NCBI GenBank assembly: GCA_028280485.1 | Contig: JANQLS010000135.1 | Coordinates: forward strand, 62,001 to 126,000 | Direction: 5' to 3' | Source: Planctomycetota bacterium | GTDB taxonomy: Bacteria > Planctomycetota > UBA8108 > JACQVS01 | DNA: 64,000 bases | Part shown: positions 19,786 through 31,939 of the stretch, piece after piece | How positions within the stretch are numbered: the stretch's first letter is position 1 | Layout: each line of letters opens with the position of its first letter | Notes under the pieces: generated by a model | Seen by the model: the letters and a program-made list of their open reading frames with translations, nothing else | What the model was told of the DNA's origin: nothing | Databases searched by the model: none | Translations under genes and position numbers: made by a program

Positions 19786-20631
19786 CTAAGGCGTAATCGG
19801 CTTGTAATATTTCTGAGCTTCGGGAATGTACTTTCTTAAGTCGGCCAATCGTTTTCCATGAGAGGGATGCGTTGATAAAAAGTCAGCAATTGAACTTCCT
19901 CTTTTATCTGCTCCCGTGGCTTCACCCATTCTTTGCCAAAACTCGATCGATTTTTCAGGGTTGTAACCGGCCTTAGCCATAAAGATCAAACCCACTCGAT
20001 CTGATTCTGTTTCCATATCTCGACTAAAAGGTTTGATGGCGAATACATCGGCTCCCACTGCGAAAGCTTGTAAGATAAGATTTTTATCTTCAGGATCCTC
20101 ATTTTGAAGAGCGATTAACAAACCAGAAGCAATGATATTCATTCCGAGTTCTTGGGTGAGTCGTTCAGCTCCATGTCGTTGAATCACATGAGCAATCTCA
20201 TGCCCCATCACTGTTGCCAACAAGGCATCATCCCCTTCAGTTAATCTGAGAAGGCCCGTATAAACGGCAATCTTTCCTCCAGGCAGAGCCCAGGCATTGA
20301 CGACATTGTCATCTTCGATGACTTTGAATTCCCAGGGCAAATCAGATCGACCACTCGCTTCGGCTAAGCGATGACCGATGCGCTCCACGCGTCGGTTATA
20401 AGTAGTGTTTCCCGATATATTTGAAGCGGAGAGCGCTTGCTTGTAAGCCTCGGTTCCTAAATCTATCTCATGTTGAACCGTGATCGTTGGACTGATGAGT
20501 TGCTTGCGACCCGTATAAGGCGCCGTCACGCAGCCGACGAATACTGCGAGGAAGGTAAAGAGCACAATCGCACGAATTCCACGAAATGAAAAAAGAGAAC
20601 GCGGGCTTCTTTTCTTTAATGTTACCGACAT
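19786..20631 (-). CDS. M48-family zinc metallopeptidase, probable lipoprotein
   Basis: 281 residues. N-terminal basic segment and hydrophobic IVLFTFLAVFVGC, with Cys about 34 as a possible lipidation site (the residue at -3 is Phe, not ideal). The catalytic HEIAHVIQRH (HExxH) is followed by the third zinc ligand Glu in ETESDRVGL and FLSTHPSHGKRLADL at the end. Such M48C-type proteins (relatives of LoiP/YcaL/BepA) act in the periplasm on misfolded outer-membrane proteins. The divergent neighbour is a triplet of HtrA-like genes, which suggests a shared envelope quality-control role. No TPR tail as in BepA. Confidence 0.9.
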   Translation of the reverse strand: MSVTLKKRSPRSLFSFRGIRAIVLFTFLAVFVGCVTAPYTGRKQLISPTITVQHEIDLGTEAYKQALSASNISGNTTYNRRVERIGHRLAEASGRSDLPWEFKVIEDDNVVNAWALPGGKIAVYTGLLRLTEGDDALLATVMGHEIAHVIQRHGAERLTQELGMNIIASGLLIALQNEDPEDKNLILQAFAVGADVFAIKPFSRDMETESDRVGLIFMAKAGYNPEKSIEFWQRMGEATGADKRGSSIADFLSTHPSHGKRLADLRKYIPEAQKYYKPITP

Positions 20632-20959: not shown

Positions 20960-22072
20960 ATGAAAAATTATGACACCCCCACCCACCCTTCGTGTTTCTC
21001 TTTTAATCGTCCTCCCAATTTAACTCAATACGGCTTCTGGACTTCCCTCTGGGTCCTGATCATCAGTTTTCAGTTTTTGCCGACAGACCTTCTCTCCCTC
21101 GAGATGGTGACCGCCAAGCGCGTTGAAAACAATGTTGCCCGTCTCTATAACCAAACCGCCTCTGCGGTTGTGGGAATTGAGAGCAAGGTCAAAGAGAACA
21201 TGTTCCTCGGAACTGGAGTCATCATCGATCCTAAAGGATTGGTGCTCACTTCGGTCACCGTTGTCCCCGATAAAGCCAGAGACATTCGAATTTATTTAAA
21301 AGGCGGAAAACGCGTCGCCGCCGAAATTGTGAAGGTGGTTACCGAAAAAGAGTTTTCCCTCGTTCGAATTAAAACAAAGGGAGACTATCCATTCCTCAGG
21401 CTGGGAGACAGCGACACTGTCAAACTCGGCCAACCGAGCATCACTTTAGGCAATGCGTTTATGAGTATCGTTCGCGATGATCACGTCTGTATCAATTCAG
21501 GCATCATCAGCGGAATATACAAGCTCAACAGTGGGCGTTCCGAATCGAAATACACCGGCAAAGTGATCGAGACGACGACCTTAGTCAACGACTATATGGA
21601 CGGGAGTCCTCTCATCGATAAAAACGGTCGCATCATCGGCATGCTCAGCCTGAACTACTCTACTCGACGCTGGCTGGGAACAGCCGTACCCATCAATATC
21701 TTGAAGCCTCTATTCGGAAAGTATCGCCCTTGGCATTCTGACCGTATTCATAAAACTGCGGTTTATCTTGGGCTTGACCTAACTGAAAAAGGCGATGTGC
21801 TCGACCAAAAAAGCCAATTGATCATCGATGGAATCTCTGCTGGTTCACCGGCTTCGAGAGCGGGTATCGCTTTAGGGTCTAGAATCGTCAAGGTCGCTGG
21901 TAAAGTTATCCACTCGATCGCAGACTACAAAAAAGCCCTCAAAGAAGCTCCTTCTGGGAAAAAAATCGTGATCGAGGCCTACCCTTTAGAAAAAAGCTCG
22001 AGTTCAACCCAAGAGATTAAAATGCCTGAAGAACCCAGGGTTTTTACGCTTCAACCTTGGCTTTCATTTTAA
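20960..22072 (+). CDS. HtrA-like pseudoprotease (trypsin fold plus PDZ), all triad residues replaced
   Basis: 370 residues. A hydrophobic segment at about 25-42 gives a signal anchor. The S1C fold is recognisable (GTGVIIDPKGLVLTS, LGDSDTVKLGQPSITLGN, then a PDZ domain about 265-355 with SPASRAGIALGSRI). The three catalytic positions are all changed: His is Thr100 in LTSVTVV, Asp is Glu131 in EFSLVRI, and Ser is Asp214 where GNSGGP reads YMDGSP. It should be proteolytically dead. It may bind unfolded proteins or regulate the active paralogue two genes downstream. AAGGG precedes the ATG. Confidence 0.85.
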   Translation: MKNYDTPTHPSCFSFNRPPNLTQYGFWTSLWVLIISFQFLPTDLLSLEMVTAKRVENNVARLYNQTASAVVGIESKVKENMFLGTGVIIDPKGLVLTSVTVVPDKARDIRIYLKGGKRVAAEIVKVVTEKEFSLVRIKTKGDYPFLRLGDSDTVKLGQPSITLGNAFMSIVRDDHVCINSGIISGIYKLNSGRSESKYTGKVIETTTLVNDYMDGSPLIDKNGRIIGMLSLNYSTRRWLGTAVPINILKPLFGKYRPWHSDRIHKTAVYLGLDLTEKGDVLDQKSQLIIDGISAGSPASRAGIALGSRIVKVAGKVIHSIADYKKALKEAPSGKKIVIEAYPLEKSSSSTQEIKMPEEPRVFTLQPWLSF

Positions 22073-22121
22073 TCCACTTTTCTATTCTGTACTGAACTTC
22101 ACCAATCAAATAAACAAGAAC

Positions 22122-23231
22122 ATGTCCCAAGTGAAGAACCTACTCATTTTGGCCTGTGTGACCTTCAGTGTTTCCGTTGGGCAAACGGTTGCCAATGAAA
22201 CTTTGGAAAAAGCTCCGAAGAAGCAACAAGAGGTTAAGCTCGCTAAAAAACTCACGCAAAATATCTTCGATCTCGTTCAAACGGTTTCTGATCGAATCGT
22301 TTCCATCGAAGTCGACCGAGAACCTGAACAGGGCCGCCGAAGAAACCGTAGACCCATTCGAGGACTCAGCCCCGGAGATCAAGAAGGCCTCCAAGACTAT
22401 TACAGACGACCTAAAGGCGCTGTCACGGGTCTTCTGCTAGATCACAAGGGTCATATCCTCACTTCGGACTACAACGTCTTAGGTACTATCAAAAAGATCA
22501 AAGTGACTTTAAGTAATGGTGAATCTTATGAAGCCAAAGTTCATGCGAATTCACCGGCCGACGACATCGCTCTTTTGAAAACAAAAAAGACGATCGACAA
22601 AAAACTTAAGCTCAGCCCTATCAAGTGGGGAAATCCTAAAGTCTTTCGATCCGGCTTGTTCACATTGGCGATTGGAAGCTCGCCCGAACCCGGTCAAGCA
22701 ACGGCCACCGTGGGTATCGTGAGCGCTCCCAAACGAAATGCCGGCCGAGCATTTCAAACTGACGCTGCGATGAATTATGGCAACGTGGGAGGCCCCTTGA
22801 TCGACTTGCAAGGCAATATCGTCGGGCTCTCTGCTTTCGTAGGTCACACCTATCCGCATTGGGGATTTAATTCAGGAATCGGATTCGGTGTTCGAGCGGA
22901 TCTGATTCAAAAGATTCTTCCTGAACTCAAAAAAGGAAAAAGCTTCCAAGGGATCGAACGCCCGCTCCTGGGAGTCGCAGCGGAAAACCGCCACCGTGGT
23001 CCGGGGGCAAAAATCAATTTAGTTTCTCCCGGAAGTGGAGCTGACAAAGCCGGAATGAAACCTCAAGACACGATCTTGATCTTCAACGGAGCCGAAGTCA
23101 TCGACTTCCCTCACCTTCGCCATTTGATCTTCAAGCTCAAGCCTGGAGCCAAAGTCAAATTAAAGGTCAAACGAGAAGACAAAGAATTAGATCTCGAAGT
23201 CACCCTTGGCAAATTTGATCCAAGAGTTTAA
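22122..23231 (+). CDS. HtrA-like pseudoprotease with signal peptide and PDZ
   Basis: 369 residues. Cleavable-looking signal peptide (LLILACVTFSVSVGQTVAN). Trypsin-like core with GAVTGLLLDHKGHILTSDY, ADDIALLK and GNVGGPLIDLQGNIVGL, then a PDZ domain about 280-365 (LVSPGSGADKAGMKPQD). Of the triad only Asp148 remains: the His position is Tyr117 and the Ser position is Val222. A basic Arg-rich loop (GRRRNRRPIRG) precedes the core. Same-strand genes on both sides are paralogues; the three starts lie within 20-50 bases of the previous stop, so they form one operon. Confidence 0.87.
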   Translation: MSQVKNLLILACVTFSVSVGQTVANETLEKAPKKQQEVKLAKKLTQNIFDLVQTVSDRIVSIEVDREPEQGRRRNRRPIRGLSPGDQEGLQDYYRRPKGAVTGLLLDHKGHILTSDYNVLGTIKKIKVTLSNGESYEAKVHANSPADDIALLKTKKTIDKKLKLSPIKWGNPKVFRSGLFTLAIGSSPEPGQATATVGIVSAPKRNAGRAFQTDAAMNYGNVGGPLIDLQGNIVGLSAFVGHTYPHWGFNSGIGFGVRADLIQKILPELKKGKSFQGIERPLLGVAAENRHRGPGAKINLVSPGSGADKAGMKPQDTILIFNGAEVIDFPHLRHLIFKLKPGAKVKLKVKREDKELDLEVTLGKFDPRV

Positions 23232-23250
23232 ACCCACTGGAGACCCTGTA

Positions 23251-24534
23251 GTGCTACGCCAATTAACTCCATCCGTACTCCTGATCCCCTTGGTCATCGC
23301 TTGGGTGCTGAATTTCTCAGCTTTGAGCCTCCAGGCTCAAACCACTCAAATCGATGAACTCAATGAGCTTCAGAAACGAATCACAAATACGATCGACAAA
23401 TGTTTGCCCGGGGTTTTATTCATCGATCGAGGATCCGGATTTTGTATTTCAAAAGATGGTTTTGTTCTGACGAACGACCACGTGATGGGATCCAATAAAG
23501 AAATCGATGTTCGTTTTGCTTTAACGGGGAAGAAGTTTCGTGCCAAGTTACTCGGTAAATATCCTGAAGGAGATTTAGCTCTTCTAAAAATTGAGAAGAA
23601 AGGTTCTTACCCTTTTATTAAGCTGGGTGACTCCGACAAACTGAAACCCGGTCAGTCGACTTTAGCTCTTGGGAATCCTTTTCTCCTCGGTGACGAAAAC
23701 GAGTTTTTCCGAGGTATTCCCGCTGATTTCCATCCTTCTGTCAGCTACGGGGTCGTCAGTGCAGTATTTAGAAACACTCCCCCGCGCTACCCCGATGCCA
23801 TCATGGTCGATACGGCCGTCAATCCCGGTAACTCGGGAGGACCTTTGGTGACATTGGATGGTGTCGTTGTCGGTATCAACGGAAAGATTGAAACTCGTTT
23901 CGGTCTAAGCCTGAATTCAGGAGCTGGGTACGCTGTCCCCTCATCTAAAATCATGCGCTTCCTTGAACCCCTCAAGAAAGCTAAGGGCAGAGCTGTTTCT
24001 TCCGGTCAAATGAAAGGTTTAACCGTTGAAGAGCGTATATCAGGAGGAAAGCCCGGTCTTCCTATCAAATATGTCAGCCCCGGGAGCCCCGCTTACGATG
24101 CTGGTTTTCGTGGCGGTGATCGAATCTTAGCGATCGACTCGTATTTGATCCGTACCCAAAGTCACTACGATGGATTTTTAAAGTCCTACCCAGCGGGAAG
24201 TAAAATCAAATTCAAAGTTCTTCGAAAAAGCGGAGAACAAACCATCGAAGCCACGCTTTCACAAAAATCGAATAAGCGCCCCGTTAAACTCGGTATCAAG
24301 CTAGGAACGGATGATAATCCACTTCAAGTTACTCGAGTCTACGAAAACTCTTCAGCTGACTTAGGTGGAGTCAAAGTCGACGACATTCTCTTGGAATTCG
24401 ACAAAGTAAAGATCGAAGGCGTGATCGACTTGATCAAGATCGTCAAAGAGAAAAAGCATGGCGATAAAGTTAAGGTCAAAATCAAAAGGAAAGATAAGAC
24501 CTTGGAGCTGGACGTGGAGATGCTGAGTCCATAG
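23251..24534 (+). CDS. HtrA/Deg-family serine protease with two PDZ domains, triad intact
   Basis: 427 residues from GTG 23251, chosen because TGGAGA lies just upstream and a signal peptide follows at once (SVLLIPLVIAWVLNFSALSLQAQ); a longer frame from TTG 23206 would overlap the previous gene. Catalytic residues are all present: His77 in LTNDHVMG, Asp108 in GDLALLKIE and Ser195 in NPGNSGGP. Two PDZ domains follow at about 250-335 and 340-425. This is the working protease of the triplet, expected in the periplasm or cell envelope as a DegP/DegQ-like quality-control enzyme. Confidence 0.93.
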   Translation: MLRQLTPSVLLIPLVIAWVLNFSALSLQAQTTQIDELNELQKRITNTIDKCLPGVLFIDRGSGFCISKDGFVLTNDHVMGSNKEIDVRFALTGKKFRAKLLGKYPEGDLALLKIEKKGSYPFIKLGDSDKLKPGQSTLALGNPFLLGDENEFFRGIPADFHPSVSYGVVSAVFRNTPPRYPDAIMVDTAVNPGNSGGPLVTLDGVVVGINGKIETRFGLSLNSGAGYAVPSSKIMRFLEPLKKAKGRAVSSGQMKGLTVEERISGGKPGLPIKYVSPGSPAYDAGFRGGDRILAIDSYLIRTQSHYDGFLKSYPAGSKIKFKVLRKSGEQTIEATLSQKSNKRPVKLGIKLGTDDNPLQVTRVYENSSADLGGVKVDDILLEFDKVKIEGVIDLIKIVKEKKHGDKVKVKIKRKDKTLELDVEMLSP

Positions 24535-25186: not shown

Positions 25187-28100
25187 ATGTGCGGTATCCA
25201 TGGACTGCTAACGTCTAAAACACCCTTTTCAAGCCCCACCCAACGACTTCAACCCGAAAAGTTCTTCAATCAACTCTCTCAGATTCTCACTTACTCTAGT
25301 GACAACTTGTTGAGCGAAGCTCTATCCACAGACCTCAAGAACTTACAATCACAATGTCAACTCTGGGTGGATAAAGATGGTTTTCTTCTTTTAAGTGAAG
25401 ACGAAGAGCTCAGAAACCAACTCCAACAATACGTTCACGAACTCGAAGGCTGGACCTCGAAGCTCGAACAAGAAGCGCAATCGGGCGAATGGAAAAATCA
25501 AAGTTCCGTCGAGCAACTCAATGAACTCATCCTTTTGAGCTCCGACCTTACTTGGACTTTAAAGTGGGACGCTCTAGCCAATCTGGAACGTGTCTTCAAC
25601 TTGCTCAATTCTCAAGCTGCTTGCCCTCAAGCCCGCACCCACGCTTGGTCGCTCAATATCATTTTAAATGGCATCGATCGACTTGAAGTCAGAGGAAGAG
25701 ATTCAGCCGGAATCGCCGTTTACGCTCACTTCGAAGACTCAACCTCCTTAGAACAATTCATTTCAGAGTTGAGCGATCAGACAGAATGGGCCCAACAATT
25801 TATAGAACGTCTTTCACTCAAGGGATTGACCCAAGGAACGATTGTTCGGCCCGAAAGTTCACCTTCCACTCTTCTCTTCACATTCAAAACGGCTGAAGAA
25901 GTGGGGAAGATGGGAGACAACGTAAATACGTTAAGAGACCTCATCACGACGGATCCCATATTTCAAAAGGTGATTCGATTTCCCAAGGTTCAAATCCAAG
26001 CCTTGGCTCACACCCGCTGGGCCTCGAATGGAATTGTTTCACTCGAAAATTGTCACCCTGTCGACAGCGCGCTTATCGACGAACAGCAAGCCATCGTCCG
26101 AGGCGGTGAACTTGTTGCTGTTTTAAACGGCGATATCGATAACTACCAAGAGCTCTGCCAAAAATATATCAGTTCAACTGCCTTTGAGTTCGAATCATCC
26201 ATCACCACTGATGCAAAGATCATCCCAGTCGTCATCGATGCGTACTATAAGGAAACCGGTGACTTTGAAAAAGCATTCTTAAAAGCTTTCTCTGAATTCG
26301 AAGGTTCGATGGCCATCGGAGTGATGGCAGCCCACCATCCCGGAAAGATTCTGTTTGCTCAAAAAGGAAGCGGACAGGGTCTTTACTTTGGTTTTGGTCA
26401 ATCCACCACCGCAGTTGCCTCTGAAATGTACGGCTTAGTGGAGTTAACTCCCACTTACTTTAAAGCTGAAGGTGAGCGCAGTGAGCAAGGGGAAATCTTT
26501 GTTGTCAAACAACACGATACGAAAACGAGAACTCGATTCCTCTGTGAGTATGTCACGACTGAAATTCCCGAAGACCGCGTGCAAAAGGCAGAGATCACCA
26601 CTCGCGATATCAATCGCGGAGACTATCCTCACTTCCTGTTAAAAGAAGTCACTGAATCGGTTTCAACGGTTCGAAAAACTTTGCGAGGTCGTTTTGAGAA
26701 CCCTCAAGACTCTGAGCCCACCTTCAATTTAGGTGCAGAAGTTCTCGACCCAGATCGCCTTAAACAATTCTGCCAAGGTAAAATCAGAACCATTCAAGTC
26801 ATCGGCCAAGGCACGGCGGCCATCGCCGGCGATGGTATTGCTAGACTCATCAAGAGTGCCTTAGCCAATTCTAAGCATCCCATCGAAGTCGTCTCTCAAA
26901 AAGCAACAGAGCTTTCGGCTCATGGCTTAAGAGATGACATGTCAGACACCCTGATCATCGCCGTAAGCCAATCGGGGACGACAACAGACACCAATTGCAC
27001 GGTCGACCTCGTTCGGGAACGAGGAGCTTGGGTTTTAGGAATCGTTAATCGACGAAACTCGGATCTAGTTTATAAGTCTCACGGCGTTCTCTATACCTCA
27101 GATGGCCGAGACATCGAAATGTCGGTGGCTTCAACCAAAGCGTTCTACGCACAAAACGTGGTTGGAGAGATCTTAGCTTTAGCTTTAGCCCAGGCCATCG
27201 GATCTTTGACCTCAAGTCAATTAAAGAGACGCTTAAACTCACTGGAGTGCCTCCCTCAAGCCATGGAACAAACTTTGACATTGAGTGATTCCATTTATGA
27301 GATCGCGCAGCAATTCGCTCCCCGAAAGAAATACTGGGCGATGGTGGGTAGTGGTTCTTCAAAAGTAGCTGCCGATGAAATTCGCATCAAGCTGAGTGAG
27401 CTTTGTTACAAGTCGATCGCCAGTGACTTTACTGAAGACAAAAAGCATATCGACCTTTCTTCGGAGCCCTTGATTCTGGTTTGTGCCAGTGGAGTTCAAG
27501 AAGAATTGATTTCTGACTTAGTTAAAGAAGTCGCCATTTTTAAAGCACACCAGTCCATTCCCATTGTGATTACCACACAAGGCGAATCCCGATTTAACCC
27601 CTATGCTAGTGGGATTGTCGCCGTTCCTAAAATCGATGGTGAGTTGGGTTACTTGCTTTCAACGATGGTCGGTCACCTCTTTGGTTATCACGCCGCCTGC
27701 AGCTTTGATCATCACGCGGATACCTTGAGACATATTCGCTCGGGATTAGCCCAGGCGCGTTCCCAACAAACAGGGCAAACGTTCAGTTTTGAGTCGTTGG
27801 AATTAGCCGATGAGTGGTTGAGTCAAGCTCACGAACTGAGGAACTTACTGTTAGATGGATCTTTAGACAGCTGCTTAGATCCCGGAACGGCAACGCGATT
27901 AGCCTTACTCTTACAAGCCGCGCTTTCGAGAACTCCCTTCGAGCTTCCGGCTTCAATCGTTCCCGTAACCAACTCAGAAACCTTAGTTGAGGCTCTATTA
28001 GATGTCACCTCACAAGCTATCCACGAACTCGCACGGCCAGTGGATGCCATCAAGCATCAAGCTAAGACCGTAACCGTGGGAATTTCCCGAGGCGAGAGCA

Positions 28101-28684
28101 AAACTCAAGCCGGCGCCTTGTGGCAAGCCATTGAGTCTTGTGAATTAGAGCAGGAGCAAATCTCTGAAGCTCAAAAAGCCTTCTTGTGGGCCTTTGATCC
28201 TCTGGTCGCAGAAGTGGAAGGTTCCACTCTTTATCACGTGCATCGATTGGATGCTCTCGGACGCCCCCGCGACGATTCAAGAATCAGCGTAATCGAAAAA
28301 CAAGGCTCTGCGAAAGACCTCAATTCACGTTGCGATGAAGACAGCCTTTTAAGTGGAACTAAATGGGGAGTCGTCAAGCGCGGCGAGATCTACTTAGGCT
28401 TGGGACAAACCGACAATCGAAAGATTTTAATTCTTCCCGCGATCGGAGAACGCCCTGAAGGGCATCTACTTCTACTTCACTTGAGTCTCAAGGCCTCACC
28501 CATTAACGAAGAGCGTCTACCCGCACTTTCCATGCTCGGAAATCGATTCGAGAAGTTGAAGATTGCCATCACCGAGCATCACCAATCCTGGGATCCTCAA
28601 ATGTTAGAAGGCATCGACAACGAAACGCTGTTCTTTAAATCACCTGAGGAAGTGGCGGAGGCAATAGAGAAAGTTACGGTTTAG
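25187..28684 (+). CDS. Giant GlmS-like amidotransferase with two SIS domains
   Basis: 1165 residues, nearly twice normal GlmS (about 610). It starts MCGIHGLL, so Cys2 is the Ntn nucleophile; LAHTRWASNG, LNGDIDNY and TTDAKIIPVVI complete the glutaminase domain, which is stretched to about 440 residues by insertions. SIS1 (about 540-690) has AVSQSGTTTDTNC and SVASTKAFYAQ; SIS2 (about 715-870) has GSGSSKVAADEIRIKLSEL and KKHIDL, keeping the Glu and His of the isomerase site. The usual C-terminal Lys loop appears as QAKTVTVG near 957-964, displaced by about 90 residues, followed by about 200 residues I do not recognise. It probably makes glucosamine-6-phosphate, but another sugar acceptor is possible. 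GAGGAT precedes the ATG. Confidence 0.85.
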   Translation: MCGIHGLLTSKTPFSSPTQRLQPEKFFNQLSQILTYSSDNLLSEALSTDLKNLQSQCQLWVDKDGFLLLSEDEELRNQLQQYVHELEGWTSKLEQEAQSGEWKNQSSVEQLNELILLSSDLTWTLKWDALANLERVFNLLNSQAACPQARTHAWSLNIILNGIDRLEVRGRDSAGIAVYAHFEDSTSLEQFISELSDQTEWAQQFIERLSLKGLTQGTIVRPESSPSTLLFTFKTAEEVGKMGDNVNTLRDLITTDPIFQKVIRFPKVQIQALAHTRWASNGIVSLENCHPVDSALIDEQQAIVRGGELVAVLNGDIDNYQELCQKYISSTAFEFESSITTDAKIIPVVIDAYYKETGDFEKAFLKAFSEFEGSMAIGVMAAHHPGKILFAQKGSGQGLYFGFGQSTTAVASEMYGLVELTPTYFKAEGERSEQGEIFVVKQHDTKTRTRFLCEYVTTEIPEDRVQKAEITTRDINRGDYPHFLLKEVTESVSTVRKTLRGRFENPQDSEPTFNLGAEVLDPDRLKQFCQGKIRTIQVIGQGTAAIAGDGIARLIKSALANSKHPIEVVSQKATELSAHGLRDDMSDTLIIAVSQSGTTTDTNCTVDLVRERGAWVLGIVNRRNSDLVYKSHGVLYTSDGRDIEMSVASTKAFYAQNVVGEILALALAQAIGSLTSSQLKRRLNSLECLPQAMEQTLTLSDSIYEIAQQFAPRKKYWAMVGSGSSKVAADEIRIKLSELCYKSIASDFTEDKKHIDLSSEPLILVCASGVQEELISDLVKEVAIFKAHQSIPIVITTQGESRFNPYASGIVAVPKIDGELGYLLSTMVGHLFGYHAACSFDHHADTLRHIRSGLAQARSQQTGQTFSFESLELADEWLSQAHELRNLLLDGSLDSCLDPGTATRLALLLQAALSRTPFELPASIVPVTNSETLVEALLDVTSQAIHELARPVDAIKHQAKTVTVGISRGESKTQAGALWQAIESCELEQEQISEAQKAFLWAFDPLVAEVEGSTLYHVHRLDALGRPRDDSRISVIEKQGSAKDLNSRCDEDSLLSGTKWGVVKRGEIYLGLGQTDNRKILILPAIGERPEGHLLLLHLSLKASPINEERLPALSMLGNRFEKLKIAITEHHQSWDPQMLEGIDNETLFFKSPEEVAEAIEKVTV

Positions 28685-31201: not shown

Positions 31202-31939
31202 TTAGGTGGGTTTATTTTCTTCAGGATCATCGGATGGTTCGTCGTCGAAGGGAGAGAAGAAAAAATCGTCTTCGCCGTCGTCATCGTCATCATCGTCGTC
31301 GTCGTCATCATCATCGCCCGAGAGATCGTACTCTTCAGAAATCTCTTTTAAGAACGGGAGCTCTCCATCTTCCGAGAGCCCTTTTAAGACCTCTGCCATG
31401 TCGAGTTCTTTAGGAGCGCCCAAGCCTTCAGCTTCTCTTAAGCCCCGGATGACCGCGCCTTCAAGTTGGGCGATGCGCTCCATGAGAATAATTTCATCTA
31501 AATGAGGGGAGTCCTCATCGATGTCTTGATTCCAGTCATCATCTTCGATTTTTAAATTAGTGCCGATCAGGATTCTCAGGTCGTGAAGAAATCCTAACCA
31601 CATCGAGAGGTCTTCATCGGTGAGACTGATGTGAAGAATTTCGACTTCTTCGCTTTCAGCGTGGATCGATTCACTCTGGGCGATGTTTTCTTCGAAGCGA
31701 TTGAGGCAATCCATTTTCCCTTTGAGGATGTCTTCTCGCATGAGGCTTTGGTATTCGGCTTCAGCGAGTGGGTCCTTTCGGTAACCTTGAGGGAAGAGAG
31801 CTTGACCGAGTTCACTTTCAAAGTCGGGATTTTCTAATACTTCTCGAAGTTGCTTGGGAAGGGCTTTGAGGTCGAAATCTTCATCGACTAAGACGAGAAT
31901 GGCCCAACCGTTTTCCCCTTCTCGAGTCATCCAGATCAT
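31202..31939 (-). CDS. DUF2017 family protein with poly-Asp tail
   Basis: 245 residues, very acidic. The family pattern is clear: LGQALFPQGYRKDPLAEAEY, MREDILKGKMDCL and DLSMWLGFLHDLRILIGTNL. DUF2017 genes stand beside clpS mainly in actinobacteria, and here too the gene directly follows clpS, so a part in ClpS/Clp-dependent proteolysis is a fair inference. The C terminus (about 212-232) holds a run of 13 aspartates encoded by a GAC/GAT microsatellite at about 31280-31319, then an acidic end. A strong GGGAGG site lies upstream. No enzymatic motif seen. Confidence 0.82.
   Translation of the reverse strand: MIWMTREGENGWAILVLVDEDFDLKALPKQLREVLENPDFESELGQALFPQGYRKDPLAEAEYQSLMREDILKGKMDCLNRFEENIAQSESIHAESEEVEILHISLTDEDLSMWLGFLHDLRILIGTNLKIEDDDWNQDIDEDSPHLDEIILMERIAQLEGAVIRGLREAEGLGAPKELDMAEVLKGLSEDGELPFLKEISEEYDLSGDDDDDDDDDDDDDGEDDFFFSPFDDEPSDDPEENKPT

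Follow-up and report, generated by a model that had tools for sequence, protein, structure and literature searches.

Three consecutive genes in the 9.4 Mb genome of a planctomycete encode proteins with the architecture of HtrA proteases. Only the third of these, here called C, has an intact catalytic triad. The first two, A and B, are dead paralogues that have kept the fold. The trio was found at 69 loci in at least 40 Planctomycetota family groups, of about 100 sampled; because these loci were picked for their resemblance to A or to B, such counts show breadth, not frequency. We consider it probable that the two dead proteins join C in an HtrA oligomer of mixed composition, there controlling C or feeding it with substrate.

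Three genes and one intact triad

The trio lies within the window, by which is meant the whole stretch of 64,000 nucleotides that was analysed. All three genes are read from the forward strand, and each was assigned from its reading frame, its Pfam domains and its place in a clade of its own. Gene A (20960..22072) encodes 370 amino acids and gene B (22122..23231) encodes 369. Gene C (23206..24534) encodes an S1C domain and two PDZ domains. Its start is either the TTG at 23206, which gives a 26-base overlap with B, or the GTG at 23251, which lies 19 bases after B; the stop is at 24534.

HtrA/Deg proteases are recognized by a trypsin-like S1C domain with one or more PDZ domains after it, together with an intact His/Asp/Ser triad. 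Pfam finds Trypsin_2/S1C and PDZ in all three proteins, with Trypsin_2 E-values of 6.5e-19 for A, 6.7e-18 for B and 5.7e-29 for C. In A, an N-terminal hydrophobic segment is followed by S1C at approximately residues 84-228 and by one PDZ at approximately 269-340. In B, a signal-like segment at the N-terminus is followed by S1C at approximately 102-236 and by one PDZ at approximately 281-362. An AlphaFold2 model of A (mean pLDDT 82.7, pTM 0.68) is confident for the S1C part; it is not for the placement of the PDZ, and the whole-chain rmsd is large. A fold search with this model returned DegP, DegQ and other HtrAs as the closest folds in the PDB, which places A in the HtrA architecture by a second route.

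The triad is another matter, being intact in C only. The triad alignment puts Thr100 of A (codon 21257..21259) at the position of the catalytic His, Glu131 (21350..21352) at that of the Asp, and Asp214 (21599..21601) at that of the Ser. In B, these positions hold Tyr117 (22470..22472), Asp148 (22563..22565) and Val222 (22785..22787), so that only the catalytic Asp is kept. The His, Asp and Ser codons of C are 23479..23481, 23572..23574 and 23833..23835, the last within the motif GNSGGPL. These residues are H77/D108/S195 if counted from the GTG, as a first-pass annotation of the sequence had done, and H92/D123/S210 if counted from the TTG. The oxyanion-hole motif, NPGNSGGPL in C, is NDYMDGSPL in A, where the Gly is lost. 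Because the triads of A (T/E/D) and B (Y/D/V) are changed, both are filed as pseudoproteases of the S1C fold. Proteolysis by the classical mechanism is unlikely for either, and A has lost the oxyanion Gly as well.

The first-pass annotation had described these genes as a series with graded loss of the triad and with folds and PDZ domains preserved. A re-reading, residue by residue, returned the same coordinates, the same frames and the same nine residues at the triad positions. "Graded loss" is a fair description, as A lacks all three residues while B lacks His and Ser and keeps Asp, and the Pfam domains bear out the preservation of folds.

Upstream of A, and divergent to it, is a gene for an M48 peptidase with a lipoprotein-like start (19786-20631, reverse strand), whose nearest NCBIfam models are BepA and LoiP. 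The first-pass annotation had placed this peptidase in one envelope network with the trio. Its adjacency is limited to the family of the window, where it stands beside the trio in the window and in a single other genome (locus L031). No neighbour gene is common to the trio loci across families; shared neighbours are seen only at the level of the order, an example being a gene resembling PAF-acetylhydrolases and esterases. The idea of a network with the M48 peptidase is therefore not supported.

Several other genes near the trio deserve record. The PAF-acetylhydrolase/esterase-like gene follows C at seven loci of the order (for example, L031:11401-12648, L033:8652-9917 and L035:9255-11057, the last fused to a ThuA domain) and is absent from the window. 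Downstream of C in the window, 25187-28684 (forward strand) encodes a protein of 1165 residues with glutamine amidotransferase and SIS domains, far longer than an ordinary GlmS; related proteins are encoded close to the trio in L032 and L034. A reading frame of 245 residues at 31202-31939 (reverse strand) carries a long run of Asp close to its end. In one genus, a fourth, active HtrA with H/D/S is encoded a few kilobases from the trio (L035:5786-7264, L036:10590-12068, L037:1855-3300, L038:7156-8595 and L039:3169-4614); it falls outside clade C.

Distribution, gene order and ancestry

Ten genomes of the order were examined, that of the window included, and in all ten A, B and C are adjacent. 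Throughout these ten, A has T/E/D, B has Y/D/V or Y/D/T, and C has H/D/S. Thus, the conservation of the three-gene order, which the first-pass annotation had named as a test of its proposal, holds in the order and recurs across the phylum. Among the 69 loci, C has H/D/S in all 63 complete cases; in the remaining six, one C is broken by the end of a contig and five have no visible C. No A or B domain at any of the 69 loci has a full triad. The His position of B is aromatic in most relatives, and its Asp148 is kept in 92% of 39 loci that have the A-B-C form.

Beyond this sample, 84,980 species genomes were scanned with motifs from an alignment of A. This gave 38 loci, and all of those with names are planctomycete; the motifs are exact ones from the common type of A, and divergent forms elsewhere could escape them. 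A scan of the same 84,980 genomes with a single A protein gave no match. Nor was the trio seen in family f5, the most heavily sampled of the class-mates of the window. In family f37, two genomes carry A-B with no C inside the stretch that was fetched, so the three genes need not stand together in every genome.

The trio comes in two gene orders, A-B-C and C-A-B. The second is found in twelve families, f29 and f71 with their large complete genomes among them; in these two, profile scores alone missed the trio, and the fetched loci revealed it. Two genomes carry one module of each order: G047 (L048 with L153) and G052 (L045 with L167). The genes are packed closely, with intergenic gaps mostly from -16 to +53 bases and frequent overlaps.

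The genes are also joined outright. In many families (L041-L044, L059-L072 and others), A and B are a single polypeptide, in which A has no PDZ of its own. Candidatus Uabimicrobium amorphum, whose genome is complete, provides one example (L072). B and C are a single polypeptide in one case, L153. Once such an A-B or B-C fusion is fixed, the stoichiometry of its parts is tied. A candidate fusion of all three, a frame of 1072 residues containing A and C (L062:4866-8084 and L132:3457-6675), was rejected, as B is in another frame; the cause may be an indel in assembly or a frameshift between A and B.

A maximum-likelihood tree of 79 S1C domains, unrooted and built with the three catalytic columns left out, gives one clade each for A (94/68), B (100/97) and C (99/93). 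The other HtrAs of these genomes group apart from all three. Support for the A clade is the weakest of the three, and in a wider, quick tree B and C stay whole while A needs three changes. Within each clade, the six copies from C-A-B loci form a set of their own at 100/99. This means that the trio predates the split into two gene orders. The simplest history would be one early triplication, a loss of catalysis in two of the copies, and joint inheritance thereafter.

The distances measured in A, in B and in C are correlated across loci, with r of 0.90-0.92 in the C-A-B set and a modest 0.35-0.45 in the A-B-C set. None of 2000 permutations reached the observed correlation.

What the trio might do

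The best explanation of these observations would make A, B and C an operon-like module for one exported protease of the HtrA type, built from different subunits. Here, C would provide the sole working active site of the complex. A and B, with their degenerate S1C domains and their PDZ domains, would be its partner subunits, and mixed trimers would be the simplest form of the assembly, since the building block of HtrA proteins is a trimer. Within the assembly, they might switch C on, keep it under regulation, or use their PDZ domains to bring substrates to it. The N-terminal hydrophobic segments, judged by eye, would place the complex in the envelope.

The best evidence for a mixed oligomer comes from the fusions, because they fix the ratio of the parts and because both A-B and B-C joins occur. 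The pairing of dead members with one active member, the tight spacing of the genes and their matched selection (below) all agree with it. Co-inheritance and fusion fit a shared pathway as well as they do a shared complex. The first-pass annotation had spoken of mixed oligomers or non-catalytic, substrate-capturing subunits. The joins of A with B and of B with C, together with co-inheritance, support this indirectly; the physical complex, its stoichiometry and the direction of regulation are what we infer from them.

One might instead have A and B act alone, as exported chaperones or peptide-binding scaffolds, with their operon with C reflecting a shared response to stress. DegP and similar HtrA proteins do have a chaperone activity that is separate from proteolysis, and the two f37 genomes show that A-B can be encoded with no C adjacent. 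Further, a model of the natural A-B fusion of L042 is HtrA-like and confident (pLDDT 85, pTM 0.81) with no C present. Three observations speak against this. The C of the trio is a lineage of its own, apart from every other HtrA that was sampled in these genomes; B is joined to C in one chain in L153; and in both gene orders a single live member recurs with two dead ones. We regard independent action as rather unlikely, and the mixed oligomer continues to be the preferred reading.

A more specific proposal concerns A. Its former active site might have become a new acidic site, formed by Glu131, Glu204 and Asp214, able to bind a metal ion or a small ligand and to act as a sensor within the complex. 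This can be true together with a mixed oligomer. T/E/D is the commonest triad in A (23 loci among the 69), and many of the most conserved residues in A cluster around the old active site. Among 39 A domains from modules of the A-B-C order, Glu204 is invariant (100%) and Arg237 nearly so (94%). There is also a precedent in MamO, whose protease domain came to bind metal. That metal site lies elsewhere, however, at a di-histidine on the surface of a protein that also has a transporter domain (PMC4794232).

The conservation, in turn, is not uniform. Neither Glu204 nor Arg237 is conserved in A of the C-A-B type, and several lineages have Phe, Tyr, Ala or another residue in place of the acid at the Ser position. 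The former site of A is thus found as x/E/D, x/x/F, x/x/Y or S/D/A, depending on the lineage, and its role may not be the same in all. An invariant Glu-Arg pair is, moreover, equally well explained by a structural salt bridge that closes the pocket. From the conservation of the two residues we can only guess at a salt bridge here, or at a pocket for a ligand; an acidic sensor as such appears improbable to us. Many of the A proteins of L045-L047, L137 and L148-L150, which have Phe or Tyr at the Ser position, carry two to five PDZ domains.

Selection was examined in one genus, with five genomes, that belongs to family f2 and is not the genus of the window. Here, pairwise dN/dS is approximately 0.06-0.2 for A, B and C, and equally for the fourth, active HtrA. 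The exception is the most similar pair (L037/L039), which, with dS of about 0.1 or less, gives a higher and unreliable ratio. The first-pass annotation had named a dN/dS near 1 as the sign of relaxed selection, and in this genus the dead copies lie far below it. The same low ratios, together with triad substitutions that recur in relatives, also back its argument against plain decay. That A and B are maintained and not decaying is, as far as sequence comparison goes, supported. Thus, while the loss of residues does appear graded in one genome, the notion that the dead paralogues are decaying duplicates met by chance can safely be discarded in view of these ratios, the intact frames, the spread over at least 40 family groups and the depth of the clades.

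Comparison with known HtrA systems

By fold and by S1C-PDZ layout, A, B and C resemble the DegP/DegQ/DegS/HhoA family (TIGR02037). They match the NCBIfam model at 109.5, 175.1 and 240.3 bits, respectively, and none reaches its curated cut-off of 416.2. The known members of that family are homo-oligomers in which every active site is intact.

The MamE/MamO pair of magnetotactic bacteria offers a parallel. As in the trio, the gene of a degenerate S1C protein accompanies that of an active HtrA-type protease. Proteolysis by MamE requires MamO but does not require the triad of MamO, and the pairing of active with inactive members is reported to be under selection and arose separately in three taxa (PMC4794232). 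That system, however, has two members and is specific to magnetosomes, whereas the trio has two dead members of different lineages, occurs across much of a phylum, and shows A-B and B-C fusions. Against an NCBIfam cut-off of 800, A scores 64.6 bits with the MamO model and 53.7 with MamE, and C scores 119.6 with MamE. Thus, the trio may work as the MamE/MamO pairing does, by analogy, but it is not a member of that family.

Deg5/Deg8 of Arabidopsis is a mixed HtrA oligomer with one active partner, as is proposed here. It is a heterohexamer with a ratio of approximately 1:1; of the two recombinant proteins, Deg8 alone shows activity (PMC4754418). Unlike the trio, it is found in the chloroplast, has only two partners, and includes a Deg5 that lacks a PDZ. 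The MamE/MamO and Deg5/Deg8 cases together show that each half of the proposal, an inactive partner that the protease needs and an HtrA oligomer of mixed composition, occurs in nature. Arabidopsis Deg7 (PMC4754418), in turn, resembles the A-B fusions in having two S1C domains, a degenerate one included, in one polypeptide. The other domain of Deg7 is active, however, whereas neither domain of an A-B fusion is, and the live one is found on a separate chain.

No description of the trio was found in the open-access literature, and its novelty is provisional to that extent. HtrA-family proteins are numerous in planctomycetes according to a survey of microbial PDZ proteins, whose main text never has the words "inactive" or "catalytic" (PMC6411480). 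The trio may account for part of this reported expansion.

HtrA proteins are homo-oligomers in the textbooks. The trio would be an ancient bacterial HtrA that is hetero-oligomeric, with non-catalytic subunits built in. The fused A-B proteins, such as that of Candidatus Uabimicrobium amorphum, make the arrangement of subunits directly testable. A stronger version can be put forward only tentatively, as a possibility on which we would not yet rely. Here, the complex would be an obligate A:B:C heterotrimer, having one active site per trimer, with a single early origin in the Planctomycetota and a pocket in A that is regulatory or binds a ligand. If this were true, labour would be divided in the trio as it is in the Clp and proteasome rings that contain inactive subunits.
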